Below, one piece after another: positions 9,514-22,915 of a DNA stretch of 32,336 nucleotides. The notes below the pieces were generated by a model. It did not search any database and was not told where the DNA came from. It worked only from the letters and a program-made list of their open reading frames with translations. How positions within the stretch are numbered: the stretch's first letter is position 1; every line of letters begins with the position of its first letter. Source of the stretch: Gallionellaceae bacterium. Its GTDB lineage: Bacteria; Pseudomonadota; Gammaproteobacteria; Burkholderiales; Gallionellaceae. The stretch covers positions 1-32,336 of the forward strand of contig WSYA01000025.1 of the NCBI GenBank assembly GCA_009773615.1, read 5' to 3'. Position numbers and translations under genes: made by a program.

Positions 9514-10362
9514 CTATTGCTGCTGGGTAAAAATTTCCAAAACGTCTTCCATAAATTCTATGGAACCTTCCTTGCCGACCCCGATTTCTTCCAGCACTTG
9601 TCCCCCGATGTCGAGCCATTCGGCATCTTTTTGGCGGTGAATTTTATTGTACAGATGTTGCGCCATTTGCAAAATTGAAACCAGCGTCAATGCGGCATGA
9701 TCCACGTTTAGCCGGTCGTGATGGAAACGCACCGCCTGACAAACGAATTCGGGTAAGTTCCAGTGTTTTGTCACCAGAAAGCCAACCACGGTGTGGTCGG
9801 TATTGAAGCGTTCATCCTCTTCATGGAAGTTGGGCCAATTGTCGCCTTGGTTTATGCGGAAAGCATGGCAGTACTCCGGGAAGCGTTGCATCAGAATAGG
9901 CACGCCACAATCATGAAATAACCCGGTCATATATGCTTGGTCTGGGGCGATATTGCAGGCCGAGATTTGTTTGCTGGCAATGATTCCGCAGAGGGTGGAG
10001 ATTTCTTCAGAGTGTTCCCAGAATTTTTCATAGGCCAACTCTTGCCCTCCTATCGCTTTGCGTAGCGACATTATTTTGATCAGGCTGGATAGTTGCGTAA
10101 TTCCCAGCACCGTGATCGCTTTTTGAATGCTGCTGATCGGGGTGCCGAAGTTATAGAACGACGAATTGACGAGTTTGAAGATGGCCGCAGTTAGGCCGAC
10201 ATCTTTGGTGATCAGGTTGCCGATCGCCGTGAGTTGACTGCTCGGTTTGTTGATCAACTTATCTATTTCCAGCAGGATGGCGGGCTGCGGCGGGATGTTG
10301 ATCTGGCTGCCGAGTATTTTGTTAAGCAATGCTTGCTCGTTGGGGGTTTCGGTTTTTTTCAT
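9514..10362 (-). CDS. HDOD-domain signalling protein
   Basis: The 282-residue protein is almost entirely an HDOD domain, a relative of the HD phosphohydrolases found in regulatory proteins. The typical opening is present (IPPQPAILLEIDKLI, then LITKDVGLTAAIFKLVNSSFY). An HD pair lies at His150-Asp151 in TGLFHDCGVPIL and a later HH lies in VRFHHDRLN. HDOD proteins mostly act as non-enzymatic regulators of motility, stress or cyclic-di-GMP networks, but here some HD-type residues survive. There is no signal or receiver domain. It has its own candidate promoter on the minus strand. Its partner is unknown. Confidence 0.85.
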   Translation of the reverse strand: MKKTETPNEQALLNKILGSQINIPPQPAILLEIDKLINKPSSQLTAIGNLITKDVGLTAAIFKLVNSSFYNFGTPISSIQKAITVLGITQLSSLIKIMSLRKAIGGQELAYEKFWEHSEEISTLCGIIASKQISACNIAPDQAYMTGLFHDCGVPILMQRFPEYCHAFRINQGDNWPNFHEEDERFNTDHTVVGFLVTKHWNLPEFVCQAVRFHHDRLNVDHAALTLVSILQMAQHLYNKIHRQKDAEWLDIGGQVLEEIGVGKEGSIEFMEDVLEIFTQQQ

Positions 10363-11101: not shown

Positions 11102-11643
11102 TATCTTTCCAGCTTCTTTTTTAATACCTTGTAAGCACGATGCGCTGCGACTTTCACTGCTGACTCATTCATGCCCATTTTTTCTGCCACTTCTTTGGCT
11201 GTGTAACCATCCTGATGCATCAGTTGCAGAATGGTTGCCTGCTTCTGCGGAAGTTTTTGTACCTCCCCGCTGATAGATTCGTAACTAATCACCGGTTCGG
11301 TTACAGCTTCGTGTAAATTTTCTTCGAGTTCGTCGAAATCAATGGCATGGCGCAGCTGGTCGGCATAGTGCGCACGTAAGAAATCTTGCAGCCGGAATTT
11401 GGCGATGGCAAATGCCCACGGCTTGTAGGGGCGATTGCCATCATAGGTATGGCGGGCTTTATGGATGGAGATCAGGGTCTCCTGCATCAGGTCATCCACC
11501 TCGGTGGTGAAGCCCAGGCGCTTCGCCAGAAACGGGCGCAACAAGCGCGAGGTCTTTTGCAGCAAAGCGGCGTAGGCGCGCTGGTCTCCTGCCAGAGACC
11601 GTTGTATCAACGCTTCAAAATTGTCGTTTTGATCGGTCATCAA
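11101..11643 (-). CDS. ECF RNA polymerase sigma factor, SigF-like
   Basis: This 180-residue two-domain sigma factor has region 2 at about residues 8-85 (AGDQRAYAALLQ, then VDDLMQETLISIHKARHTY and PWAFAIAKFRLQDFLR). Region 4 is at about 125-178 (LPQKQATILQLMHQDGYTAKE with helix-turn-helix MGMNESAVKVAAHRAYKVLK). It directs RNA polymerase to a small stress regulon and is held inactive by the NrsF protein encoded immediately downstream. Proposed targets are the three GTAAC(C/T)-N16-CGAA promoters at 11674, 15930 and 20178. The gene diverges from msrB. No copy of that motif faces the sigma gene, so autoregulation through it is not evident. Confidence 0.9.
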   Translation of the reverse strand: MMTDQNDNFEALIQRSLAGDQRAYAALLQKTSRLLRPFLAKRLGFTTEVDDLMQETLISIHKARHTYDGNRPYKPWAFAIAKFRLQDFLRAHYADQLRHAIDFDELEENLHEAVTEPVISYESISGEVQKLPQKQATILQLMHQDGYTAKEVAEKMGMNESAVKVAAHRAYKVLKKKLER

Positions 11644-11673
11644 GACACCAAAATTTTTTGTAACTATTTATTT

Positions 11674-11699
11674 GTAACTATTTATCGGACAGCTTCGAA
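11674..11699 (+). promoter_or_regulatory. Candidate ECF-sigma promoter before msrB
   Basis: GTAACT at 11674-11679 and CGAA at 11696-11699 are separated by exactly 16 bases, the spacing seen at two other sites in this window. The predicted start lies roughly 70 bases before the msrB ATG. A second GTAACT at 11660-11665 is part of a 14-base direct repeat (TTTGTAACTATTTA) but lacks a matching -10. Confidence 0.65.
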
Positions 11700-11719
11700 T
11701 AGGCGTGCAGACAGAGTGG

Positions 11720-11749
11720 ATCATAGCGTGTTTAGCTGAACTATTTGAA
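11720..11749 (-). promoter_or_regulatory. Candidate sigma70 promoter for the sigma/nrsF operon
   Basis: On the minus strand TTCAAA (11749-11744) is followed after 18 bases by TATGAT (11725-11720), a reasonable housekeeping promoter about 75 bases before the sigma factor ATG. It would give basal synthesis independent of the ECF factor. It overlaps the untranslated leader of the divergent msrB transcript. Confidence 0.4.
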
Positions 11750-11775
11750 AAAACTCTTACGCAGGAGATTGGATC

Positions 11776-12318
11776 ATGCAACGCAGGCAATTTTTATTTG
11801 CTTTATCTGGAGTGGCTGTTTTTTTGGCATCACGTTCTTATGCAAGCAACACATCAGGAGGCGACAAGGTGACCATCATGCGATTCTCCGACAACGGAAA
11901 ACCGTTGGGGCGCACAGCCTTGGTCAAGGTGCGCAAGGATAAAGCCGAATGGCGCAAAGTGCTTTCACCCTTGGCCTACGAAGTAACCCGCGAACAGGGG
12001 ACCGAGCGGCCTTTCTCGCAGCCTGGCTACGATAGGCATGACCCCGGCCTATACCGCTGCGCCTGTTGCGACAACGCGTTGTTTGATGCATCAACAAAAT
12101 TCGATTCTGGAACGGGCTGGCCTAGTTTCTGGCAGCCGATAGCTGCCGAAAATGTGCATGAGATTGCCGACCACTTGTTCGGTATGAGCCGCACAGAGGT
12201 GCTGTGTGCGCTGTGCGATGCCCACTTGGGGCATGTGTTTAACGACGGTCCCCAGCCTACTGGTTTGCGCTATTGCATGAACACCGTGTCGTTGCATTTT
12301 GTACCGCGCCTCAAATAA
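11776..12318 (+). CDS. msrB: Exported peptide-methionine (R)-S-oxide reductase MsrB
   Basis: The enzyme reduces R-methionine sulfoxide in proteins. The 180-residue product starts MQRRQFLFALSGVAVFLAS, a twin-arginine style signal (RRQFL), so it is probably exported folded to the periplasm. The SelR/MsrB domain spans about 50-178. Two zinc CxxC pairs are visible (CACC and CALC). FDSGTGWPSFWQ and HLGHVFNDGP are family motifs, and the catalytic cysteine is in RYCMN. AGGAG lies eight bases before the ATG. It heads an apparent operon with dipZ (13 bases later) and msrA, behind a candidate ECF promoter. Confidence 0.94.
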   Translation: MQRRQFLFALSGVAVFLASRSYASNTSGGDKVTIMRFSDNGKPLGRTALVKVRKDKAEWRKVLSPLAYEVTREQGTERPFSQPGYDRHDPGLYRCACCDNALFDASTKFDSGTGWPSFWQPIAAENVHEIADHLFGMSRTEVLCALCDAHLGHVFNDGPQPTGLRYCMNTVSLHFVPRLK

Positions 12319-12331
12319 CCAGAATTTATTT

Positions 12332-14029
12332 ATGCTGATTTTCATACTCGCTTATATCGGTGGCGTCCTCACCATTTTCAGTCCGTGCGTATTGCCGGTA
12401 TTGCCGTTCATATTTGCACGTTCAGAACAGTCTTTTCGCGATGTCGGCTTGCCGATACTGCTAGGCATGGCCGCGACTTTTACGCTGTTGGCGAGTTTCG
12501 CTGCGGTAGGAGGGGCTTGGCTGGTTGAGTTGAACCAATATGGACGTTATGCGGCGATGGCGCTGCTGCTGCTGTTGGGCACGGCACTGATTTTTCCCGC
12601 TTTGTCGGGCCGTCTGATGCATCCGTTTGTTACGTTGGGCGGGCGCTTGCAACAACATGCTGATCGGCAAAACAGCCTGAAAGGTTCGCTGTTGCTCGGT
12701 GTGGCTGTCGGTTTTCTATGGGCGCCTTGTGCCGGGCCGATTCTGGGTCTGGTATTGGCGGGCGCGGCGTTAAATGGCGCAAATCTTTACAGCGCTTTGT
12801 TGCTGTTGGTGTTTGCCACCGGTGCAGCGACCTCGCTAGGTGTTGCGCTGCTGGCGGGTGGGCGTGTATTTAAACTGATGAAGCGCGGCTTGGGGGCGGA
12901 GGAGTGGGTGCGACGCGGCTTGGGCGTGGCGGTGGTGGCCGGAGTGGTGGTCATCGCGTTTGGCTGGGATACGCGCTTTCTGGCGCAGTTTTCTTTTTTA
13001 AGCACGGCCAGCACCGAGCAGCAATTGATCGAGAAGCTGGCGCAGCGCTCAGATGTGGCCGCATTGGCGAATACCCGCATGGCTCCGCCGCTGCCGGATG
13101 CGACGCAGTGGTTCAACTCGCCGCCGCTCAATGCGGAGAGTTTGCGCGGCAAAGTGGTACTGGTCGATTTCTGGACTTATTCCTGCATCAACTGTTTGCG
13201 CACCTTGCCCTATCTGAAGGCGTGGGATGAGAAATATCGCGCGCAGGGATTGGTCATCATCGGCGTGCATGCGCCCGAATTCGCCTTTGAAAAAGACCTG
13301 CGCAATGTCGGGCAGGCGGTGCGCGATCTGGGTATCCAATATCCGGTGGCGGTGGATAACCAATATGCGATTTGGAACGCTTATCAAAACCAATACTGGC
13401 CCGCGCATTATTTGATCGACGCACAGGGGCGCATACGTCACCAGCACTTCGGTGAAGGCGCATACCAGGATACCGAGCAGATGATCCAAAGCTTGCTCAA
13501 GGAAGCGCATCGTGATTTGGCGTTGAACGAAGACTTTGTTCAGGTCGCGGGAGCGGGCGTGACAGCGGCGGCAGCTGGTGCACAAAAATCGCCCGAAACC
13601 TATCTGGGATATGCGCGTCAGGAAAATCTGGCTTCACCCGAAGCGATCAAACAAGACATGCCCGCCCGCTACAGCGCTCCTCACAAACTCAAGCCGGATC
13701 AATGGGCGTTGTTCGGGGATTGGCAAATCGCCAAAGAAGCTGCGCTGCTGCAAGTCCCCGGCGGTGCCATCAGCTACCGCTTTCAGGGGCGCGACTTGCA
13801 TCTGGTGTTGGGCTCGCACAGCGGCAAGCCGGTGCGCTTCAAGGTTACGCTGGACGGAAAACAACCCGGTGCTGATCACGGTGTGGACATCGACGCGCAG
13901 GGCAATGGCGAGGTTCTCGGGCAGCGTTTATATCAGCTTATCCGCCAAAACGGCGCGACCAAAGATCGAATTTTTCGTATCGAGTTTTTAGATGCGGATG
14001 CCGAGGCGTTCGCTTTCACTTTCGGTTAA
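12332..14029 (+). CDS. dipZ: DipZ-type thiol:disulfide transporter (CcdA/DsbD membrane domain + thioredoxin domain)
   Basis: The 565-residue protein joins three parts. Residues 1-225 form a CcdA/DsbD-like membrane domain with two in-membrane cysteines, Cys19 (IFSPCVLPVLPF) and Cys133 (LWAPCAGPILG), the pair that passes electrons across the membrane. Residues 255-400 are a TlpA/redoxin-like thioredoxin domain with Cys285-Ile-Asn-Cys288 in FWTYSCINCLRTLPYLKAW. Residues 430-565 form a beta-rich C-terminal domain, as in mycobacterial DipZ. It probably takes electrons from cytoplasmic thioredoxin to the periplasm. Sitting between msrB and msrA, its likely job is to regenerate those exported enzymes. 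I chose ATG 12332; an upstream start would overlap msrB and hide the first helix. Confidence 0.88.
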   Translation: MLIFILAYIGGVLTIFSPCVLPVLPFIFARSEQSFRDVGLPILLGMAATFTLLASFAAVGGAWLVELNQYGRYAAMALLLLLGTALIFPALSGRLMHPFVTLGGRLQQHADRQNSLKGSLLLGVAVGFLWAPCAGPILGLVLAGAALNGANLYSALLLLVFATGAATSLGVALLAGGRVFKLMKRGLGAEEWVRRGLGVAVVAGVVVIAFGWDTRFLAQFSFLSTASTEQQLIEKLAQRSDVAALANTRMAPPLPDATQWFNSPPLNAESLRGKVVLVDFWTYSCINCLRTLPYLKAWDEKYRAQGLVIIGVHAPEFAFEKDLRNVGQAVRDLGIQYPVAVDNQYAIWNAYQNQYWPAHYLIDAQGRIRHQHFGEGAYQDTEQMIQSLLKEAHRDLALNEDFVQVAGAGVTAAAAGAQKSPETYLGYARQENLASPEAIKQDMPARYSAPHKLKPDQWALFGDWQIAKEAALLQVPGGAISYRFQGRDLHLVLGSHSGKPVRFKVTLDGKQPGADHGVDIDAQGNGEVLGQRLYQLIRQNGATKDRIFRIEFLDADAEAFAFTFG

Positions 14030-14045
14030 CCATAGGGAGCGCGCC

Positions 14046-14672
14046 ATGACGACTTACCGCCGTATCACACGTAATTTACTCGGCAGCCTGTGCTTCATAC
14101 TCAGCATGGGCGCGCTATCTAACGCCATGGCGGCTCCCGTCGGGCAAACAGCCGTATTCGCCGGAGGCTGTTTCTGGGGAGTGGATGCGGTGTTCAAACA
14201 TGTCAAAGGCGTGTCGGAAGTGGTTTCGGGGTATGCCGGAGGCAGTGCGGCCACGGCGCATTACGAGCAGGTGAGCGATGGCAACACCGGACATGCCGAA
14301 GCGGTACGCGTGCGCTTCAATCCGGCGCAGGTCTCCTATCATCAGTTGCTGCAAGTATTTTTCAGTGTGGCACACGACCCTACCCAACTCAACCGCCAAG
14401 GCCCGGATTCAGGCAGCCAATACCGCTCGGCGATCTTTTATACCAGCCCCGAGCAGCAGACGATTGCGCAAAGCACCATTCAGCAACTCGCTACCGCGCG
14501 CACTTTCTCCTCCGCCATCGTCACACAAATCGTGCCGCTGCAACAGTTTTATCCCGCCGAAGATTATCACCAGAATTATCTGGCACTGCATCCCAACCAG
14601 CCCTACATCATTTTCAACGACAAGCCCAAGGTGGAACAGTTGCGCAAGCAATTTCCAGCGCTGTACCGCTAA
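14046..14672 (+). CDS. msrA: Exported peptide-methionine (S)-S-oxide reductase MsrA
   Basis: This 208-residue enzyme reduces S-methionine sulfoxide. A signal peptide is visible (about residues 1-34, NLLGSLCFILSMGALSNAMA). The MsrA domain follows at once with the catalytic motif GGCFWGVDAVF. Other landmarks are VVSGYAGGSA, the VFFSVAHDPTQLNRQGPDSG segment and YRSAIFYTS. ATG 14046 has an AGGGAG ribosome-binding site 7 bases upstream; a longer frame would begin inside dipZ. It lies 16 bases after dipZ. Together with the exported MsrB it should repair both sulfoxide stereoisomers outside the cytoplasm. Confidence 0.94.
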   Translation: MTTYRRITRNLLGSLCFILSMGALSNAMAAPVGQTAVFAGGCFWGVDAVFKHVKGVSEVVSGYAGGSAATAHYEQVSDGNTGHAEAVRVRFNPAQVSYHQLLQVFFSVAHDPTQLNRQGPDSGSQYRSAIFYTSPEQQTIAQSTIQQLATARTFSSAIVTQIVPLQQFYPAEDYHQNYLALHPNQPYIIFNDKPKVEQLRKQFPALYR

Positions 14673-14783
14673 TTCGGCGAGACGCGCGCGCAGTCCTGCA
14701 CGGGCGAGTAACATGCTCGATTTAATGTGCCCATTAGGTTTATTATTTGCCTATCTGGCGACTCAATAGAGAGCGTGGCAATC

Positions 14784-15887
14784 ATGACCGACATCCAAAC
14801 ACTGACCTATCCGACAGTTCTGGATAGAGAGGCGCTGCACGAATTTTCTGACGCACTGACGGATCGCGCACATGACATCGAACGCGACATGGCTCGCCTG
14901 AGTACAGATCCGGGAAACCGGGTGCTGATCGCCGACATCTTCCGCGCACTGCACAATATCAAGGGCGATGCTGCGCTATGCAGCGTGCCGATGGCGGGGC
15001 TGGTCGCGCATCCGCTCGAATCGATTTTGACCCGTTTGCGCTCGGGCGATGTACACTATACGCAAATGCTCGGAGAGGTGATTCTGCTTGCGCTGGATCG
15101 GCTGGAGTTGGCCGTCGATGCGCTGGTGGCGAATAGGCCCGTGGTGCAACTCAAGCTGGCAGTGCTGGTGGAAGGACTGGAGAAAATGGGTCGGGCTCCC
15201 CAGAGCGATATCGATCTGGGGGCGGCGCAACTGATTAACACTATTACTGGATTCCGTCCGCAGACATTTCCGCTAGCTGTGGTGGGCAAACCTTCCAGTC
15301 AAGTTTCCTCCAAAGGCGGCGTGGCGAAAGACCTGCGGTTTTTTCGCTCTCTGGCCTTGCAGTTCGAAACGCGCTCTGCGCTGTTCGCCGGGCGCACTGA
15401 CCGCCTGCATCAATTGGCGCTGGACACCAACCGGATAGCCGGTTCTCCAGTGGACGAAGTGCAACTGGAAGCGGCGCTTTATCTGCATGATCTGGGTATG
15501 ATGTTTCTGCCGGAATCGGTATGGATCAAGCTCGAAAAGATGAGCAAGGTAGAGCGCGCAATTTTGCATGCGCATCCGGGCTTTGCTGCCGGATTGTTGG
15601 AGCGCATGGAAGGCTGGAAAGGTGCGGCAGAGATGGTGCAGCAACACCATGAAACATGGGACGGGAAAGGTTATCCGGCCAAGTTGGACGGTACGGAGAT
15701 TTGCTCGGGCGCCAAAATCATCGCCATCGTGGATGCCTTCGAGGCGGTCATGCTGAAGCATGGCGCGCGCAGTCATGGAAGCTCGGTTTTGCGTGCCATT
15801 GCCGAGATTAATGCCTGCGACAAGCAGTTTGCGCCGGAATGGATCGAGCCGTTCAACGCGGTTATCCGCACGATGCTCGAACACTAA
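14784..15887 (+). CDS. Hpt-like domain fused to HD-GYP cyclic-di-GMP phosphodiesterase
   Basis: The 367-residue cytoplasmic protein has two parts. Residues 12-130 resemble a histidine phosphotransfer (Hpt/CheA P1) domain, with His57 in the typical HxxKG motif (IFRALHNIKGDAALCS). Residues 185-360 form an HD-GYP-like domain: LHDLGM carries the HD pair, and HHETWDGKGYP is the signature HHExxDGxGYP of active cyclic-di-GMP phosphodiesterases. So it may hydrolyse cyclic-di-GMP under control of a phosphorelay. No kinase or receiver gene is adjacent. I chose ATG 14784 because the upstream extension has no conserved sequence. It follows msrA by 111 bases, and whether it belongs to that operon is unclear. 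Confidence 0.82.
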   Translation: MTDIQTLTYPTVLDREALHEFSDALTDRAHDIERDMARLSTDPGNRVLIADIFRALHNIKGDAALCSVPMAGLVAHPLESILTRLRSGDVHYTQMLGEVILLALDRLELAVDALVANRPVVQLKLAVLVEGLEKMGRAPQSDIDLGAAQLINTITGFRPQTFPLAVVGKPSSQVSSKGGVAKDLRFFRSLALQFETRSALFAGRTDRLHQLALDTNRIAGSPVDEVQLEAALYLHDLGMMFLPESVWIKLEKMSKVERAILHAHPGFAAGLLERMEGWKGAAEMVQQHHETWDGKGYPAKLDGTEICSGAKIIAIVDAFEAVMLKHGARSHGSSVLRAIAEINACDKQFAPEWIEPFNAVIRTMLEH

Positions 15888-15929
15888 TGATCGTTTTGTT
15901 TCCCCTGTGTCAGATCGTGAAAATTTTAT

Positions 15930-15955
15930 GTAACCTTTTTTTTGCCTATCCCGAA
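15930..15955 (+). promoter_or_regulatory. Candidate ECF-sigma promoter before the bufferin operon
   Basis: GTAACC at 15930-15935 and CGAA at 15952-15955 are separated by exactly 16 bases. The transcript would have an unusually long leader of about 140 bases before the precursor gene ATG at 16105. Confidence 0.7.
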
Positions 15956-16020
15956 TATGCGGGTGCGAGGGCGAAATGTCGCGAGACCATCACTCAGGTA
16001 AATGGATTAAGCGCTTTATT

Positions 16021-16083
16021 CCTCGTGTAAAGAAGCCGGAAATTTCCGGACGAGGATTTGGGGGTGACCCCCTTCAGTTTTTT
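16021..16083 (+). promoter_or_regulatory. Structured leader of the bufferin operon
   Basis: CCTCGT (16021-16026) pairs perfectly with ACGAGG (16050-16055). Inside lies the perfect palindrome CCGGAAATTTCCGG (16036-16049). Then GGGGG-TGA-CCCCC (16060-16072) forms a second hairpin, followed by a T-rich stretch ending in six T (16078-16083), just before the ribosome-binding site. This could be an attenuator or a translation/RNA stability element. No known riboswitch is recognised. Confidence 0.45.
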
Positions 16084-16104
16084 CAACCAAAGAGGAGTTT
16101 TAAA

Positions 16105-16395
16105 ATGGAAAAGCATCAAGTCTTGGCAGTTGCAATCGGTGGTTTGTTGGCGTTGGGACTTGCAGGCAATGCAAGCGCTGCCGATAAGAAAATGGAAATG
16201 GAAAAGTGTTACGGCGTGGCCAAGGCAGGCATGAACGACTGCGGCAGCAAAAAATCCGGCCACTCCTGTGCCGGGCAAGCCACTAAAAACAGCGACGTAA
16301 ATGATTTCGTTGCGTTGCCAAAGGGGACTTGCAACAAGATCGCAGGCGGCACTTTGTCCGACGGCGGCGACATGATGATGAAGAAGGCAATGTAA
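16105..16395 (+). CDS. bufA1: Bufferin-type precursor peptide (DUF2282), Met-rich
   Basis: The 96-residue product has a Sec signal (about residues 1-26, ending GNASAA) and a short mature domain with four cysteines, Cys35, Cys46, Cys55 and Cys76. These sit in the DUF2282 pattern EKCYG..KAG.NDC...HSCAG...PKGTC. Proteins of this family, bufferins, are made in the cytoplasm and modified by a DUF692 enzyme with a DUF2063 partner. As I recall, some cysteines become thiooxazole rings and the product, once exported, binds copper. Both mature ends are rich in Met (KKMEMEK; GDMMMKKAM). AGAGGAG gives a strong ribosome-binding site. It heads the operon with its modifying enzymes. DUF2282 membership is firm, while copper as the metal is inferred. 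Confidence 0.88.
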   Translation: MEKHQVLAVAIGGLLALGLAGNASAADKKMEMEKCYGVAKAGMNDCGSKKSGHSCAGQATKNSDVNDFVALPKGTCNKIAGGTLSDGGDMMMKKAM

Positions 16396-16400
16396 TAACC

Positions 16401-17228
16401 ATGCCCGCAAGCAATACATTGCCGTGTGTCGCAGGTATCGGTTTGCGGGCACCTCATTACAGCGAGGTGCTGGACACTTTGCCCAAGCTGGGCTGGGTAG
16501 AAGTACACAACGAGAATTTTTTTGGCGGCGGTGCGCCGCTGCGTACCTTGCTCAAGGTGCGCGAACATTATCCCGTCAGTCTGCATGGAGTGGGCATAGG
16601 CTTGGCATCGACCCTGCCGCTCGACCCTGAGCATTTGTCCGCGCTGCATCACTTGTGCGATACCGTACAGCCCGCCGTGGTGTCTGAGCACCTGTGCTGG
16701 AATGCGGCGGAGGGGATGGTGGTCAATGATCTATTGCCGTTCCCTTATACCAGCGAGGCGCTGGCTCATGTGGCGCGGCGCGTAGAGCAAGTGCAGGAAA
16801 AACTGGGATGCCAATTGCTGGTGGAAAATCTTTCCAGCTATCTGTCTTTCTCGCACAGCGAAATGACCGAGGGCGAATTTCTCGCCGAACTGACGCGGCG
16901 CACCGGCTGCGGCATTCTGTTCGATGTGGAGAACCTGTATGTGAACGTGCGCAATCTCGGCGTGGATGCCGAAGCGTTCATCAGAGCCATTCCCGCCGAA
17001 GCGGTGAAGGAATATCACCTGGCGGGTTTCAGCGTGCGCGACGGTTGTCTGGTGGATACGCATAATCATCCCGTCTACGCCGAGGTGTGGGAGTTATACG
17101 AATACGTATTGCGGCAGATCGGGCCGCGCCCCACGCTGATCGAATGGGATAGCGATATTCCTGCTTTGCCGGTGTTGATGGGCGAAGCGGCAAAGGCGCA
17201 GCAGCGCTTGGAAAGCTGCCATGCGTGA
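16401..17228 (+). CDS. bufB: DUF692 / MNIO peptide-modifying enzyme BufB
   Basis: The 275-residue TIM-barrel protein belongs to the multinuclear non-heme iron oxidative (MNIO, DUF692) family, which oxidises cysteines in peptide precursors. Likely metal-ligand regions are visible: LHGVGIGLAS (His62), SEHLCWN (His97), LLVENLSSY (Glu142), ILFDVENLYVN (Asp175), EYHLAGF (His206), DTHNHPV (Asp219, His221, His223) and IEWDSDIP (Glu248). ATG 16401 lies five bases after the precursor stop, and a longer frame would run back into the precursor gene. The next gene overlaps by eight bases. The substrate is expected to be the upstream precursor, and possibly the second precursor at 20584. Confidence 0.93.
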   Translation: MPASNTLPCVAGIGLRAPHYSEVLDTLPKLGWVEVHNENFFGGGAPLRTLLKVREHYPVSLHGVGIGLASTLPLDPEHLSALHHLCDTVQPAVVSEHLCWNAAEGMVVNDLLPFPYTSEALAHVARRVEQVQEKLGCQLLVENLSSYLSFSHSEMTEGEFLAELTRRTGCGILFDVENLYVNVRNLGVDAEAFIRAIPAEAVKEYHLAGFSVRDGCLVDTHNHPVYAEVWELYEYVLRQIGPRPTLIEWDSDIPALPVLMGEAAKAQQRLESCHA

Positions 17229-18003
17229 ACTGAACGATGAGTTGGCCAGTTTAGCGCGCGCCATCATTCGCGGCGAGGAGACTTCATCGCGGATCGACGC
17301 GAGCTACCCGAACTATTCCGGTGCAGTCGCAATCGAGGTTTACCGCAACAATTATCGCGGCAATTTGCATGATGCTCTGGCGGGCGCGTACCCAGTCGTC
17401 AAACAGCTGGTCGGCGACGATTTTTTCCGCTTCATGGCGCGCAAATTCATCGAACAATATCCTTCGCGCAGCGCGAACCTGCATCACTACGGCATCGAGC
17501 TGGCAGACTTCGTGGTGACTTTCACGCCTGCGCAAGAATTGGTTTATCTGGCGGATGTGGCGGCGTTGGAATGGGCTTATCACGTTGCGTATTTCGTGGC
17601 GGACGAGCCGCCACTAGCGCTCGACAGGCTGGCGCAGATACCGACCGAACAGTATTCAGATTTGATCTTGCGCACCCATCCGGCCTGTCGGATGGTGTAT
17701 TCGCGTTATCCCGTCGGCGTGATTTGGCAAGCGCATCAACCCGGTGCGGACAGCGACTTTCACATCGATCTCGATAGCGGGGCATCCATTGTGCTGGTGA
17801 GTCGCGCAGAGGATATCGTTCAGGTGACTGACTTGTCGGCGGATGCGGCCGATTGGCTGAAGCGCATACAGGCGGGGAACTCGCTGGGGTTGGCGAGCAG
17901 CGCCACGCTGGAGCGTTATCCCGATTTCGATTTGCAAGCCGCGCTGCTGAAATTGGTTGCGCAAAATGTCCTGACTGATTTTGAACCCGGAGCGACGCCA
18001 TGA
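17221..18003 (+). CDS. bufC: DUF2063 partner protein BufC
   Basis: The 260-residue protein has an N-terminal DUF2063 domain (about residues 5-100). Its hallmark residues are YRNNYRGNLHDALAGAYPVV, the GDDFFRFMARKFIEQYP helix and the HHYGIELADFV segment. The C-terminal part (about 110-260) is the second domain usually seen in this group. Family members accompany DUF692 enzymes and are thought to recognise and present the precursor peptide. The start overlaps the end of bufB by eight bases and the stop overlaps the DoxX gene (ATGA), so translation is probably coupled through the whole unit. The role is inferred from the family. Confidence 0.9.
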   Translation: MRELNDELASLARAIIRGEETSSRIDASYPNYSGAVAIEVYRNNYRGNLHDALAGAYPVVKQLVGDDFFRFMARKFIEQYPSRSANLHHYGIELADFVVTFTPAQELVYLADVAALEWAYHVAYFVADEPPLALDRLAQIPTEQYSDLILRTHPACRMVYSRYPVGVIWQAHQPGADSDFHIDLDSGASIVLVSRAEDIVQVTDLSADAADWLKRIQAGNSLGLASSATLERYPDFDLQAALLKLVAQNVLTDFEPGATP

Positions 18004-18458
18004 TTTTTTTGTCACGCTGGCTAAGGCATTACTACACGGCATCACACCTGCCCGAATATCTCGCTCCACTACTCGACCTTGGGTTGAGATTGTTTCTTGC
18101 CAATGTCTTTTTCAGATCCGGGCTGACCAAAACTCAAAACTGGGACAGCACGCTGTATTTGTTCAGCGATGTTTATCAGGTGCCGTTGCTCCCGTCCGAG
18201 GTGGCGGCCTATCTGGCTACAGGTGCCGAGCTGGGTTTGCCTGTGCTGCTGGTGCTGGGGCTGTTCGGACGCTTCGCGGCAGCCGGGCTGTTCATCCTTA
18301 ATCTGGTCGCGGTCTATTCTTATTATTCGGAATTGAGCGAGGCGGGGATCAATCAGCATCTGTACTGGGGGATGTTGCTGGCGGTGTTATTGATGGTGAG
18401 CCGCGAATCTTGGTCGATAGATGCGTGGCTGGAAAAGCGCGTGCAGCAAACGGAGTAG
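18000..18458 (+). CDS. DoxX-family membrane protein of the bufferin operon
   Basis: The 152-residue protein has four probable membrane helices, and the DoxX pattern is visible (LFLANVFFRSGLTKTQNW; EVAAYLATGAELGLPVLLVLG; FAAAGLFILNLVAVYSYY). DoxX-type proteins often close bufferin-like operons, where a role in redox or electron supply has been suggested but is not settled. The start overlaps the bufC stop (ATGA). A GGTCGG/CCGGCC hairpin lies right at its end (18458-18475) but has no T run. This is a membership call only; I do not assign a reaction. Confidence 0.85.
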   Translation: MIFLSRWLRHYYTASHLPEYLAPLLDLGLRLFLANVFFRSGLTKTQNWDSTLYLFSDVYQVPLLPSEVAAYLATGAELGLPVLLVLGLFGRFAAAGLFILNLVAVYSYYSELSEAGINQHLYWGMLLAVLLMVSRESWSIDAWLEKRVQQTE

Positions 18459-18521
18459 GTCGGTTTTATCCGGCCTGACTATATAGTTAGTCCCAATTCA
18501 TCGGAGCGTATTTAATTCCCA

Positions 18522-20159
18522 ATGTATATTTTGAACAAGCTGAATCAAGTGCGCATCGGCGTTCGGCTGGCGGCGGGTTTTGCCGTGGTTTTGCTGTTTC
18601 TTGTACTGGTTGTCATGCTTGCGGTGAATCGCCTCGATCAACTGACCAGCACTACGCGTGAAGTCATCGAAGGTGATGCGGCACGCGCAACGTTGGCGCA
18701 TGCGATCAATCTGCATGCCGAAAGCAGCGCGGGGCGCTTGGCATTGCTTTTTATCCTGCAAGAAAAAGAGCAGCGTGTAGCTGTCTATCGCGAGATGGAT
18801 GGGCATAATGCGGCCATAGACGAAACCATCAAGAGCATCGCCCCGTTGCTAAGCAATCCTGATGAAACGGCGGCGCTGTCCCGCATCACCGCTCTGCGTG
18901 AGATATACCGTGAAAAATTTCAGGCTGCCGTCGAGGCGCTCGAATTGAATGACCGCGCTGCAGCAGAAAAAATCATGACTACCTCCACCCGCATCGCCTT
19001 GCAAGAATTGCTGTCCGAGGTGTCGAAACTTGCGCAAGGCCAGCAGCTTTCCATGCTGGCAAGACAGAAAGAGGCTAGCGAGGATATGGCGCGCGCCAAG
19101 TTCATCGTGATAAGCCTCGGCGTGGTGGCATTGCTGGTGAGTTTGTTGCTGGCGGTGATGCTGACCAGAGGAATTGCGGATCCTCTAGGGGCGGCCGTGC
19201 GGGTTGCGGACGAGATTGCCGGCGGAAATCTGCGCACAGACATCCCCGTAAAAGGCAGCGACGAAGTCGCCCAGTTGATGGTGCGCATGGGGTTTATGCA
19301 AACGCGTCTGCGCGAATTAATCGTCGCTATCCATGACTCTGCAGGGCAGGTCGGTCATGCAGCCAGCAGTCTGGAGCAGCCCTCCAGCGTGGTGAGCTGC
19401 GGTTCCGCTGAACAGCGCGAACTGGCGGTGAGTATCGGGCAATCGGTGGGCCACTTGATCGAGGGTATTGCACGCGTTTCGGGCAATGCCGCTGCTACGC
19501 GAGCCCACGCCGAATCGTCACGCGATATGGCAAGCAGCAGCGCCGGATTGATCGTGACCGCTGCTAGAGAAATTGCCGAAATTGCTTCAGTCGTCTCGGC
19601 TTCGGCTCATTCGGTGGACGGTATGCGCCAACGTGTCGAGCAGGTCGCAGTCACAGTGGGCGTTATCAAGGAGATTGCGGACCAGACCAATTTGCTGGCG
19701 CTCAATGCCGCCATAGAAGCTGCCCGCGCGGGCGAGAGCGGACGCGGGTTTGCCGTCGTGGCGGATGAAGTGAGGAAGCTGGCCACCCGCACCGCCGAAG
19801 CGACATTGCAGATCGACAAAGAGATCATCGCCATAGACCAGCAGACACGGCTGGCCGTAAATAACATCAATGCCGGACGCACGGGAATGGATCGCGGCAT
19901 GTTGCTCATCGAAAACATGGTGTCTCCGTTAGGCGAACTGAAGGAGGGCGCGCAAGCGTCGCTGGACAATCTTGAGGTGCTGACGAAGATTGTGGCCGAT
20001 CAGGCGCGCGAGAGCGCGGCCATATCCAAAAACGTGCAGCGCATTATTGGCATGGCGGAGAACAATTACGATTCGGCCCAGTCCGTGGCGGCAATCACTG
20101 CCGAAATGGGCACGCTTTCAATAGAACTTCAGGCTACGGTAAAAAATTTTCGTTATTAG
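18522..20159 (+). CDS. Methyl-accepting chemotaxis protein
   Basis: The 545-residue receptor has a first membrane helix at about 13-35. A periplasmic four-helix-type sensing region follows at about 36-193, predicted mostly helical. The second membrane helix is at about 194-215, a HAMP linker at 216-268 and the signalling domain at about 300-545. The conserved hairpin tip is intact ([19 protein letters not shown], then [23 protein letters not shown]). There is no C-terminal CheR-binding pentapeptide. The ligand is unknown; the sensing region has few cysteines or histidines, so direct metal sensing is not evident. Its position between the bufferin operon and the second bufferin-like gene may be chance. 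No cheA or cheW is nearby. Confidence 0.92.
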
Positions 20160-20177
20160 TGTCAGAAAAATATCAAT

Positions 20178-20203
20178 GTAACCATTTTGCGTGCATTTAC
20201 GAA
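20178..20203 (+). promoter_or_regulatory. Candidate ECF-sigma promoter before the tiny lipoprotein
   Basis: GTAACC at 20178-20183 and CGAA at 20200-20203 are separated by exactly 16 bases, matching the sites at 11674 and 15930. The next start codon is 86 bases downstream (20289). Confidence 0.65.
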
Positions 20204-20583: not shown

Positions 20584-20871
20584 ATGAAAGATCAGCGCAC
20601 CCTCGTTTCTGCCGCCATCACGGGTCTTCTCGCCCTCGGCATCACCACCTCTGCCGGATCTGCTTACGCGGCTGAAACTGAAAAATGTTTCGGCATCGCC
20701 AAGGCCGGGCAGAACGCTTGCAACAGCAATGCTAATAAACACTCCTGCGCCGGACATTCGGTGATCGACAATGATCCCAACGACTACGCGCCGGTTCCGA
20801 AAGGAAGTTGTTTGAAGGTCGGCGGCAAGCTGGAACCGGCAATCAAACCCGCCGCATCAGAAAAACATTAA
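20584..20871 (+). CDS. Second, stand-alone bufferin-type precursor (DUF2282)
   Basis: The 95-residue product has a Sec signal (about residues 1-30, ending SAYAA) and four cysteines at 35, 46, 55 and 76, the same positions as in the precursor at 16105. The shared pattern is EKC(F/Y)G.AKAG.N.C...HSCAG...PKG(S/T)C. Unlike that protein its mature part contains no Met and ends in a Pro/Ala/Lys tail. No DUF692 or DUF2063 gene is next to it, so modification would depend on the bufB/bufC pair 3-4 kb upstream. AGGAG precedes the ATG, and a good terminator follows. No GTAACC-type promoter lies directly before it; the nearest is at 20178, upstream of the tiny lipoprotein. Confidence 0.85.
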
Positions 20872-20950: not shown

Positions 20951-22915
20951 ATGCTGCAGCGAAAGATATTTGCGGTTTTTATATTAGTGTTGGTGGTCGG
21001 CATTGCCGTGTTTGTCCAGATACTTGATCTGGGTAAATCGGTGCAAGCCGTGAATAATTCCTTTATCTCCGAAAGGCTCCCTTTGTCCCAGCGTATCGGT
21101 GAACTGCGCGGTGTCATCGCGGACGAAGAACGCCTGCTGTACGAATATTATTCATTCACCGCGACAAGTGATGTGTTCCTGACGCAGAGCGCCCAGAACA
21201 AAGCTCGTTTGGGCGAGATCGTCGCCAAACTCGAAGAGGATACAAGCTTGGGCGAGATCGTCGCCAAACTCGAAGATGATACAAGCTCGCGCACCGGAGT
21301 CGCAGAGTTGCGCACCCGATTGTCAGAGCTTGAAAAGTTGTCGGGTGAGCTATCCGGTACGCTCTCCCAAAGTTTGGTGGATTGGGATAAGGCTCGCGCG
21401 CTCCTGGCGCAGATCAAACCCAAAGTTCGGCAGATTGAAAAAGTGCTCGCCACCATCACCTCGGCCAACCAGCAGGCGGTGACCGCTCTGGGGCAAGACT
21501 CCCAGAGCGGTGTGTCAACGATGGTGCGTTGGGTCTTTGGATATTCCGGATTGATTTTCGTTGTCGCGTCTTTTGTCATCTACTATGTTTTTGAAATCAA
21601 GAAAGCGGAAAAGCGTCTTTCCTATCAGGCGTACTTCGATGCGTCGACCGGGCTGCCGAACCAGTACAGGTTGCGTGAAGAGCTGAGTCTGGCATTTGCG
21701 CAACAATGCGCCGGATCAGTGATGATGATTGTGGCTGACCGCGAACAAGAGATTCTGGAAAGTTTCGGGGCAGCCGAGACCGAGAATTGGCTGGTCAAGA
21801 TCGCGCAACGCTTGCGAGATACACTCAATAGCGAAGGTGAAAAGCTTTATCGCTTCGGTAGCAACGCGTTTGTGCTGGTGCGTTTGCCCTGTAATTTGAG
21901 CGCTGCCGAGCAGCGCGCCAGACAGCTATTGATCGAGGCGCAGCAACCGTTGCAGGTCGATGGACGTGAATTGTTTTCGACGCTGTCGATCGGGGCGGCA
22001 CTCATGCATTGCGACACCGGCAATGATACCGCCAGTATGGTGGAGGCGATGGTGCAACAGTCTGCTTCCGCCTGTAACCGGGTGCGTCGCGCGGGCGGCA
22101 ATGATTTCGCGGTCTACGATGAAGTTATGAGCCGCGCCGCTGCCAAAGTGTTGCACTTGGCGGCAGACCTGCATCACGCCGTGGAAAACAACGAACTGCG
22201 TCTGCAATACCAGCCCAAGGTGGACACAGCGACAGGACGCCTGCTCGGCATGGAAGCGCTGGTGCGCTGGATTCATCCCGTGCGCGGCATGATCTCGCCG
22301 GTTGAATTCATTCCCGTCGCCGAAGATACCGGCCTGATCGTTGCGATCGGTCGCTGGGTGTTGCGCGAAGCCTGCCGGCAAAACATGGAGTGGCAACGCT
22401 CCGGCATGCGCCCGCTGCGCGTGGCGGTCAACCTTTCCGCGCGCCAATTCCGTTCCGGCGAACTGCTGGACGAGATCGATGCCGCGCTTGCCGACACGGG
22501 GCTCCCCGTGGATTTGCTGGAGTTAGAGGTTACCGAAAGCATGGTGATGGAAGACCCGGAAAGCGTCATAAAATTGCTGGGCGCGATACATGACCGTGGC
22601 ATCCACATCTCGCTCGACGATTTCGGCACCGGGCATTCGTCGCTCGCTTATTTGAAACGCTTTCCGATAGATTGCCTGAAAGTTGACCGGGCTTTCATTA
22701 AGGACACGCCGGAGAACACGGACGACGCGGCGATTGCGCAGACCATCGTCGCCATGGCACAAGCGCTTGGCTTGTCCACCGTGGCCGAAGGCGTGGAAAC
22801 GGCGGAGCAGCTAGCACTGCTAAAGAGCATGGGTTGCGACCAGATACAAGGTTACTTCTTCAGTCGGCCCTTACCTGCGGACGACTTTCTTGCCTACTAT
22901 CGCACGCACCTCTGA
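20951..22915 (+). CDS. Membrane GGDEF(degenerate)-EAL cyclic-di-GMP phosphodiesterase
   Basis: The 654-residue protein has one helix at about 5-25, a periplasmic coiled sensor region at about 26-195, and a second helix at about 197-218. A GGDEF-like domain lies at about 225-395 and an EAL domain at about 405-650. The GGDEF signature is lost (FGSNAF at 302-307), so no cyclase activity is expected. The EAL domain looks active: Glu435-Ala-Leu in GMEALVRW, DDFGTG with Asp556-Asp557, KVDRAFI and VAEGVET. It should hydrolyse cyclic-di-GMP in response to an envelope signal. The sensor contains a nearly perfect 39-base tandem duplication. A terminator lies just before the gene, so it is transcribed separately. 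The ligand is unknown. Confidence 0.9.
   Translation: MLQRKIFAVFILVLVVGIAVFVQILDLGKSVQAVNNSFISERLPLSQRIGELRGVIADEERLLYEYYSFTATSDVFLTQSAQNKARLGEIVAKLEEDTSLGEIVAKLEDDTSSRTGVAELRTRLSELEKLSGELSGTLSQSLVDWDKARALLAQIKPKVRQIEKVLATITSANQQAVTALGQDSQSGVSTMVRWVFGYSGLIFVVASFVIYYVFEIKKAEKRLSYQAYFDASTGLPNQYRLREELSLAFAQQCAGSVMMIVADREQEILESFGAAETENWLVKIAQRLRDTLNSEGEKLYRFGSNAFVLVRLPCNLSAAEQRARQLLIEAQQPLQVDGRELFSTLSIGAALMHCDTGNDTASMVEAMVQQSASACNRVRRAGGNDFAVYDEVMSRAAAKVLHLAADLHHAVENNELRLQYQPKVDTATGRLLGMEALVRWIHPVRGMISPVEFIPVAEDTGLIVAIGRWVLREACRQNMEWQRSGMRPLRVAVNLSARQFRSGELLDEIDAALADTGLPVDLLELEVTESMVMEDPESVIKLLGAIHDRGIHISLDDFGTGHSSLAYLKRFPIDCLKVDRAFIKDTPENTDDAAIAQTIVAMAQALGLSTVAEGVETAEQLALLKSMGCDQIQGYFFSRPLPADDFLAYYRTHL
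21209..21286 (+). repeat. 39-base in-frame tandem duplication in sensor domain
   Basis: Two adjacent 39-base units (21209-21247 and 21248-21286) differ at a single base (GAGGAT versus GATGAT). Each encodes LGEIVAKLE(E/D)DTS, 13 residues. The near identity indicates a recent duplication in this lineage, or an assembly artefact. Confidence 0.9.

Follow-up and report, generated by a model that had tools for sequence, protein, structure and literature searches.

The 32,336-nucleotide (nt) stretch of contig WSYA01000025.1 from a Gallionellaceae bacterium (assembly GCA_009773615.1), analyzed here at its full length and called the window below, encodes an extracytoplasmic function (ECF) sigma factor resembling SigF and, next to it, an anti-sigma factor of the NrsF family, and it contains four sites that combine the half-sites GTAAC and CGAA. 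Three of these sites are intergenic and precede operons predicted to encode methionine sulfoxide reductases and bufferin-type peptides. The fourth lies inside the sigma gene itself and is, with a probability that we put at roughly three in four, a sigma-dependent promoter that drives only nrsF. We further consider it likely that, in a clade of SigF-type systems with the Gallionellaceae at its center, the autoregulatory promoter moved into sigF and the second conserved cysteine of NrsF gave way to glutamate, both the wiring and the sensing of the response having changed.

The intragenic site was absent from an earlier note on this DNA, which had singled out the three intergenic ones. Its spacer is one base longer than theirs (Table 1), and it constitutes a sigma-type promoter sequence within the sigma gene that is directed at the anti-sigma gene. 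Among 150 genomes of the family (own genome included), NrsF is present in 57 and DUF2282, the domain of bufferin-type precursors, in 43; our family set, 93 stretches with a total of 1.02 Mb, was taken from the other genomes around 57 places with NrsF and 56 with DUF2282 and does not include the partial NrsF match G024:C63. When the spacing is written as GTAAC-Nk-CGAA, where k = 17 is the operon-type spacing (GTAACY-N16) and k = 18 is one base longer, and k is varied from 8 to 30, these 93 loci hold 96 sites at k = 17 and 60 at k = 18, compared with 0–9 at each of the 21 other values, and the reversed pattern has no peak (6 at k = 17, 14 at k = 18, and 4–22 elsewhere). Including that of the window, 53 of the 61 k = 18 sites fall inside the sigma gene, on the same strand and mostly about 177 nt before nrsF.

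Codon usage points to selection on this intragenic word at the level of DNA or RNA, and not only of protein. We compared 56 distinct sigma genes (window included), whose proteins share 54–99% identity (median 73%), at the 120 columns that have the same residue in at least 40 genes, and called a column near-invariant in codon when one codon was common to at least n−1 genes. Exactly five of the 120 columns are of this kind, and these five spell the −35 and −10 elements: V113 (GTA in 52/52 genes, against a background of 0.19), T114 (ACC, 52/53), E115 (GAA, 52/53), Y120 (TAC, 51/52), and E121 (GAA, 54/55). The adjacent conserved residues S119, S122, I123, L130, and P131 are written with several synonymous codons. 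The base preceding GTAAC is T in 52 of 55 sigma genes, over a residue that can be Asp, Pro, Asn, Ala, Tyr, His, Ser, Thr, or Cys, and outside the family GTAAC and CGAAT are unchanged over a residue 115 that can be Glu, Lys, Asn, Gly, or Phe. By the same criterion, the near-invariant columns of the control genes are scattered and number 0/104 in nrsF, 3/116 in msrB, 4/359 in dipZ, 2/134 in msrA, and 4/196 in bufB.

The position of the promoter separates two groups of sigma factors. NrsF matches occurred in 15/229, 50/300, and 81/398 sampled genomes of the class, order, and phylum, respectively, and the matches listed yielded a non-family set of 91 loci (71 plus 20 added), 84 of them with a usable sigma. 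Sigmas at least 60% identical to that of the window were assigned to the clade and those below 50% were called distant, none falling at 50–59%; the distant ones were not individually checked as partners of the nearby NrsF, and the truncated sigma of locus L102 was left out of the comparison. The internal site is present in 53 of the 57 family sigmas (window included) and, among the matches listed, in all 17 from other families. A scan of named genome records returned 30 loci, in which each of the 22 close sigmas has a site inside the gene and no site upstream; 18 of them repeat sequences already counted and four are new (Nitrosomonas and three records labelled Alphaproteobacteria), the remaining eight loci (23–29% identity) standing outside the site count. 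Of the 78 sigmas of the clade as a whole, 74 have the internal site and none has one upstream of sigma. The distant sigmas among the matches listed have the opposite arrangement, with an upstream site (k = 16 or 17) in 53 of 67 and an internal one in none. In 71 of the non-family loci among the matches listed, the spacing peaks at k = 17 (79 sites), with 19 sites at k = 16 and eight at k = 18.

Exact upstream sites accompany 49 of 68 distant sigmas among the matches listed, where shuffles expect 0.1; this 68-row set, unlike the 67-row one, includes locus L120, an unrelated ECF sigma and the single family row below 50%. Upstream of 74 clade sigmas (57 + 17), a scan that allowed mismatches found no exact site and three with one mismatch, shuffles expecting 0.3 and 5.5, and with the best matches at shuffle level we rejected a degenerate relict promoter at that place. 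In a tree of 144 sigmas computed without the linker columns, the internal site needs five changes (shuffled mean, 48), the number given by one gain and four losses; the tree was built by a quick procedure, its support is partial, and among its long branches that of L137, which has no site, groups with the internal-site sigmas. From this pattern of positions we infer that the promoter most likely moved from outside to inside the sigma gene.

The sigma gene may have a promoter of another type. A TATGAT word on its strand, in the window alone a weak consensus match, is a possible housekeeping −10 element, and 20 of 59 loci, where 0.68 are expected, have TATGAT no more than 50 nt from the divergent site, 17 of them at 25–27 nt. 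This suggests that, at least in that third of loci, the sigma gene is read from a housekeeping promoter. The TATGAT of the window is 26 nt from the −10 element of the divergent msr site; should both act as promoters, the beginnings of the msr and sigma transcripts would overlap, and transcription of msr could interfere with that of sigma.

A second difference concerns the anti-sigma factor. By alignment, the NrsF of the window keeps the first conserved cysteine (Cys128) and has Glu178 at the place of the second. The first cysteine is found in 73 of 78 clade and 57 of 63 distant proteins, and the second position has Cys in none and Glu in 73 of the 78 clade proteins, in contrast with Cys in 54 of 64 distant ones, a denominator that retains some frames wrongly chosen by the open reading frame (ORF) rule (L143 and L174 were seen). 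Because of this glutamate, we regard the system of the window as a diverged sister subgroup of the ECF16 SigF/NrsF systems, not a canonical one. Motif and partner gene make the sigma factor a candidate member of ECF16; of the NCBIfam matches listed for it, only the general ECF model TIGR02937 exceeds its cut-off, and NrsF scores 31.4 bits with the NCBIfam equivalog NF042994 (NrsF), below the cut-off of 300.

The three intergenic sites reported in the earlier note are all present, each with a spacer of 16 bases and on the plus strand; shuffled windows contain a mean of 0.04 such sites, and none of 100 contained three. The note had proposed a scan of the whole genome (2,365,552 bases) that separates coding from intergenic matches. 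In number, the exact pattern is random-like, with five matches, three of them in the window, and five also for the reversed pattern. In placement, the three precede genes and are grouped in 8.5 kb next to the sigma gene, and the two outside the window lie inside open frames of 601 codons (reaching the edge of the stretch read) and 525 codons. What is unusual about the motif is its clustering at the sigma gene and its placement, rather than its number across the genome. The looser pattern GTAAC-N12–22-CGAA, with all spacings pooled, has 115 matches genome-wide and its reversed control 295. Immediately 5′ of promoter 1, at positions 11660–11685, GTAACTATTTAT forms a direct repeat 14 bp apart, the second GTAAC having no CGAA at the usual spacing.

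Regulation from such sites is supported by their conservation in the family, seen in the spacing peak, in the sites divergent from sigma, and in the association of DUF2282 genes with NrsF. The best tblastn match within 700 nt of the 99 k = 17 sites (the three of the window included) is of msr type for 47 and of buf type for 31, with no query matching at 21. Counting the window, 47 of 57 family loci have a k = 17 site that diverges from sigma and is no more than 500 nt from its start, as do 12 of 17 loci from other families. Of the 32 genomes with NrsF (own included), 26 have a DUF2282 gene with a site in the 700 nt before it, versus 2 of 11 genomes without NrsF (Fisher p = 3e-4); upstream stretches that a contig end had shortened, such as those of L089 (2 nt) and L104 (337 nt) in genomes without NrsF, count as misses. 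Promoters 1 and 2 are of conserved kinds. The stress regulon envisaged in the earlier note, which joined exported Msr repair, metal-binding peptides, and a small lipoprotein, gains support from conservation for these two promoters; promoter 3 and the lipoprotein are its weakest members, their support consisting of the motif and bufA2. The 42-amino acid (aa) ORF behind it, whose LLGAC we take to be a lipobox, was compared with the 93 family loci at permissive settings without yielding a relative (E value of the best other match, 1.1) and has no Pfam match; we rejected a lipoprotein family for it, its NCBIfam Ala-zipper match scoring 17.1, below the cut-off of 43.

Six of the 21 unassigned k = 17 sites (L036, L044, L062, L079, L103, and L105) adjoin sigma and precede small exported methionine-rich repeat peptides resembling the MrpX type; behind some of these comes an exported protein that has RRR in its leader and by eye resembles MsrP. 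The YedY of the Caulobacter SigF regulon, to which we return below, we take to be of the MsrP type as well.

A number of observations weigh against the reading of the intragenic site as an nrsF promoter in such a regulon. Ranked by total codon bias, V113 comes first, but S124, L173, R174, and L130, all outside the site, stand above the other four codons; since this ranking is less clean, the codon argument rests on near-invariance and not on bias. Codon conservation, in addition, speaks of selection on DNA or RNA and not of a promoter as such, and the genes share ancestry, their counts not being independent. The intragenic spacer exceeds that of the operon promoters by one base, and the T-rich run that follows GTAACC in the latter is missing from most intragenic copies. 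Four of the 57 family sigmas, all counted as misses, have no exact internal site (two are one base off and two have lost it), 14 of the 67 distant sigmas among the matches listed have neither site, and 39 of 59 loci have no TATGAT. As for the regulon, a divergent k = 17 site within 500 nt is missing from 10 of 57 family loci, an exact site in the 700 nt upstream is missing from 18 of the 46 DUF2282 genes of NrsF-bearing genomes, two of the 11 genomes without NrsF do carry a DUF2282-upstream site (one assembly being only 64% complete), and the exact motif count of the whole genome, equal to that of the reversed control, is not above chance.

Three other explanations have to be set against these data. 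The three intergenic sites might form an ordinary SigF regulon and the intragenic word be kept because the linker of the protein needs V-T-E and S-Y-E-S at the sigma4 boundary; in its favor, conservation within the family is high at V113, T114, Y120, E121, and S122. Protein need, however, does not account for near-invariant codons that occur only at the promoter letters next to residues with variable codons, for a T kept before GTAAC over different residues, or for a DNA word that stays where residue 115 varies; the codon test, with other genes as controls, rejects a purely protein-level explanation and largely refutes this alternative, which we judge very improbable. Less remote, though still unlikely, is another role of the word in DNA or RNA, such as causing a pause, diverting the sigma holoenzyme as a decoy, or binding another regulator: frozen codons do not name the reader of the site, and the longer spacer fits such a role. 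On the other hand, both half-sites and the flanking bases agree with an ECF16 promoter, the site points at nrsF, and it is found in the very group of sigmas that has no upstream site. That the three intergenic matches are due to chance or belong to another sigma factor, as the equal genome-wide counts of motif and reversed control might suggest, is hardly credible in view of three sites in 8.5 kb beside the sigma gene, where 0.04 are expected in the whole window, of the sharp spacing peak in the 93 family loci, and of the association with NrsF (26/32 versus 2/11); on the shuffles and the spacing peak we rejected a chance origin.

If the intragenic site is indeed a promoter recognized by this sigma factor, the system could operate as follows. 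Without stress, NrsF would hold the sigma factor at the membrane; stress would free it to transcribe msrB-dipZ-msrA, the bufferin-type operon, and the lipoprotein-bufA2 pair, and the freed factor would also transcribe nrsF, its own inhibitor, starting from within its own gene. As the sigma gene has no sigma-type promoter upstream and is probably read from a housekeeping one, feedback would be negative only, which would give a quick shut-off and no self-amplification.

The genes of the module named in the earlier note (sigma, NrsF, MsrB, DipZ, MsrA, the bufferin operon, and the second precursor) agree with their Pfam and NCBIfam matches (Table 1). Sigma and nrsF are adjacent, as the note had it: the sigma gene begins with the ATG at 11640 and its stop codon overlaps the ATG of nrsF. 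The window has the gene order of ECF16 SigF/NrsF systems, in which a gene of the NrsF family (PF06532) comes directly behind that of the ECF sigma factor. The bufferin operon contains a DUF2282 precursor, a BufB over its cut-off, and a DUF2063 partner, this last below the HvfC cut-off, and its peptides are predicted to bind copper. The BufA1 precursor has methionine-rich ends (KKMEMEK and DMMMKKAM) and could also serve as an oxidant sink. Signaling genes (Hpt/HD, chemoreceptor, GGDEF-EAL, and HDOD; 14784–15884, 18522–20156, 20951–22912, and 9514–10359) are interspersed with the operons of the regulon.

Table 1. Candidate promoters and predicted genes of the sigma factor module in the window
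Feature	Position	Strand	Basis and remarks
Candidate promoter 1	11674..11699	+	GTAACT-N16-CGAA, GTAACTATTTATCGGACAGCTTCGAA; 5′ of msrB-dipZ-msrA
Candidate promoter 2	15930..15955	+	GTAACC-N16-CGAA, GTAACCTTTTTTTTGCCTATCCCGAA; 5′ of bufferin operon
Candidate promoter 3	20178..20203	+	GTAACC-N16-CGAA, GTAACCATTTTGCGTGCATTTACGAA; 5′ of lipoprotein-like ORF and bufA2
Intragenic site, predicted promoter for nrsF only	11304..11278	-	GTAACC-N17-CGAA, GTAACCGAACCGGTGATTAGTTACGAA; about 177 nt before nrsF
TATGAT, possible housekeeping −10 of sigma gene (tentative)	11720..11725	-	Consensus scan, 9/12 matches; shuffles contain 0.4 such sites
nrsF-like anti-sigma gene, 211 aa	10466..11101	-	PF06532, E 2.1e-43
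ECF sigma factor gene, sigF-like, 179 aa	11101..11640	-	Pfam Sigma70_r2, Sigma70_r4_2; ORF list
msrB, methionine-R-sulfoxide reductase (predicted)	11776..12318	+	PF01641, TIGR00357; export inferred from N-terminus
dipZ-like DsbD/thioredoxin membrane protein (predicted)	12332..14029	+	PF02683, PF17991
msrA, methionine-S-sulfoxide reductase (predicted)	14046..14672	+	PF01625, TIGR00401; export inferred from N-terminus
bufA1, bufferin-type precursor, DUF2282	16105..16395	+	PF10048, E 1.3e-23
bufB, MNIO bufferin maturase	16401..17228	+	NF050167, 361 bits (cut-off 310)
bufC, DUF2063 partner	17221..18003	+	PF09836; NCBIfam HvfC 49.1 bits, below cut-off 142
DoxX-family membrane protein	18000..18458	+	PF07681
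Lipoprotein-like ORF, 42 aa	20289..20417	+	LLGAC, presumed lipobox
bufA2, second DUF2282 precursor	20584..20871	+	PF10048, E 5e-19

Several related systems have been described, and we compare them with the window on the basis of the accessible portions of the articles. The motif that the earlier note had ascribed to Caulobacter SigF is the published one, GTAACC-N16-CGAA (Kohler et al. 2012, PMC3511200), and also the ECF16 consensus (PMC8315932, PMC3420878). NrsF is the negative regulator of Caulobacter SigF, whose regulon comprises two DUF2282/DUF692/DUF2063 operons (one with DoxX), which we equate here with bufferin operons, together with YedY (PMC3511200). A SigF promoter lies upstream of sigF in this species, though sigF is called not strongly auto-regulated, msrA homologs are unchanged, and replacement of either of the two conserved cysteines of NrsF leads to higher expression without stress (PMC3511200); the window differs in its msrB-dipZ-msrA operon, its intragenic site, and the presence of the first cysteine only. 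The Bradyrhizobium EcfF/OsrA pair (PMC3420878), for which the group consensus is given as tGTAACc-N16-CGAA, shares with the window an anti-sigma factor of the NrsF family (DUF1109), and its methionine sulfoxide reductases are co-regulated with thioredoxin/DsbD-type partners. Unlike the sigma gene of the window, ecfF-osrA is preceded by a promoter of its own, which primer extension has mapped; the motif of EcfF itself has a spacer of N14–15 and a looser −10, and Cys179 of OsrA, at the place of the glutamate in the window, is needed for the H2O2 response (PMC3420878).

Brucella BcrS/AbcS (PMC8315932) resembles the window in its motif, (T/C)GTAAC-N17-CGAA, its adjacent methionine-repair operon, and its NrsF-family anti-sigma factor, and differs in having MsrQP with a methionine-rich peptide and two conserved cysteines; the words DUF2282 and DUF692 do not appear in the accessible text of that article. 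Neisseria SigE (PMC2893595) is likewise an ECF sigma factor set over MsrA/B and a DoxX-containing operon (NMB2140-2145), but with a GTMAGBWTT −35 element, a spacer of 12–13, and a ZAS-type anti-sigma factor. A comparable layout is that of Corynebacterium glutamicum SigH/RshA (PMC3489674), in which housekeeping promoters read the sigma gene and an intragenic SigH-dependent promoter, experimentally demonstrated, drives the anti-sigma gene only; the window, judged from its sequence, would have the same layout with an unrelated promoter word, and neither codon-level conservation nor relocation from an upstream site was found described in the available part of that article. Sigma and NrsF genes beside Buf1 clusters were noted in the portion consulted of PMC12452194. 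SigF-type regulons that include Msr enzymes or operons of the bufferin type were already known, which the earlier note does not mention, and the regulon proposed here would be a further one of that sort. Judging by titles and the beginnings of abstracts, with subscription journals mostly outside the coverage, we found no report of an intragenic site in an nrsF system, and titles and abstract beginnings likewise yielded no work on SigF in the Gallionellaceae.

If our reading is true, a joint autoregulation of sigma and anti-sigma has been turned into feedback through the inhibitor only, and the promoter is written in the codons of the linker, which would mean that the protein's own binding site has helped to shape this part of it. 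The loss of an NrsF cysteine raises the question of how the NrsF of this clade senses stress. Regulon scans confined to upstream DNA can miss a key regulatory site of this kind. One sigma family would thereby offer a natural before-and-after pair, joint autoregulation versus inhibitor-only feedback, with the switch visible in codons, and allow a direct test of how feedback wiring affects the dynamics of a stress response. In the Gallionellaceae, the module would link the repair of methionine in the envelope with metal-binding peptides.

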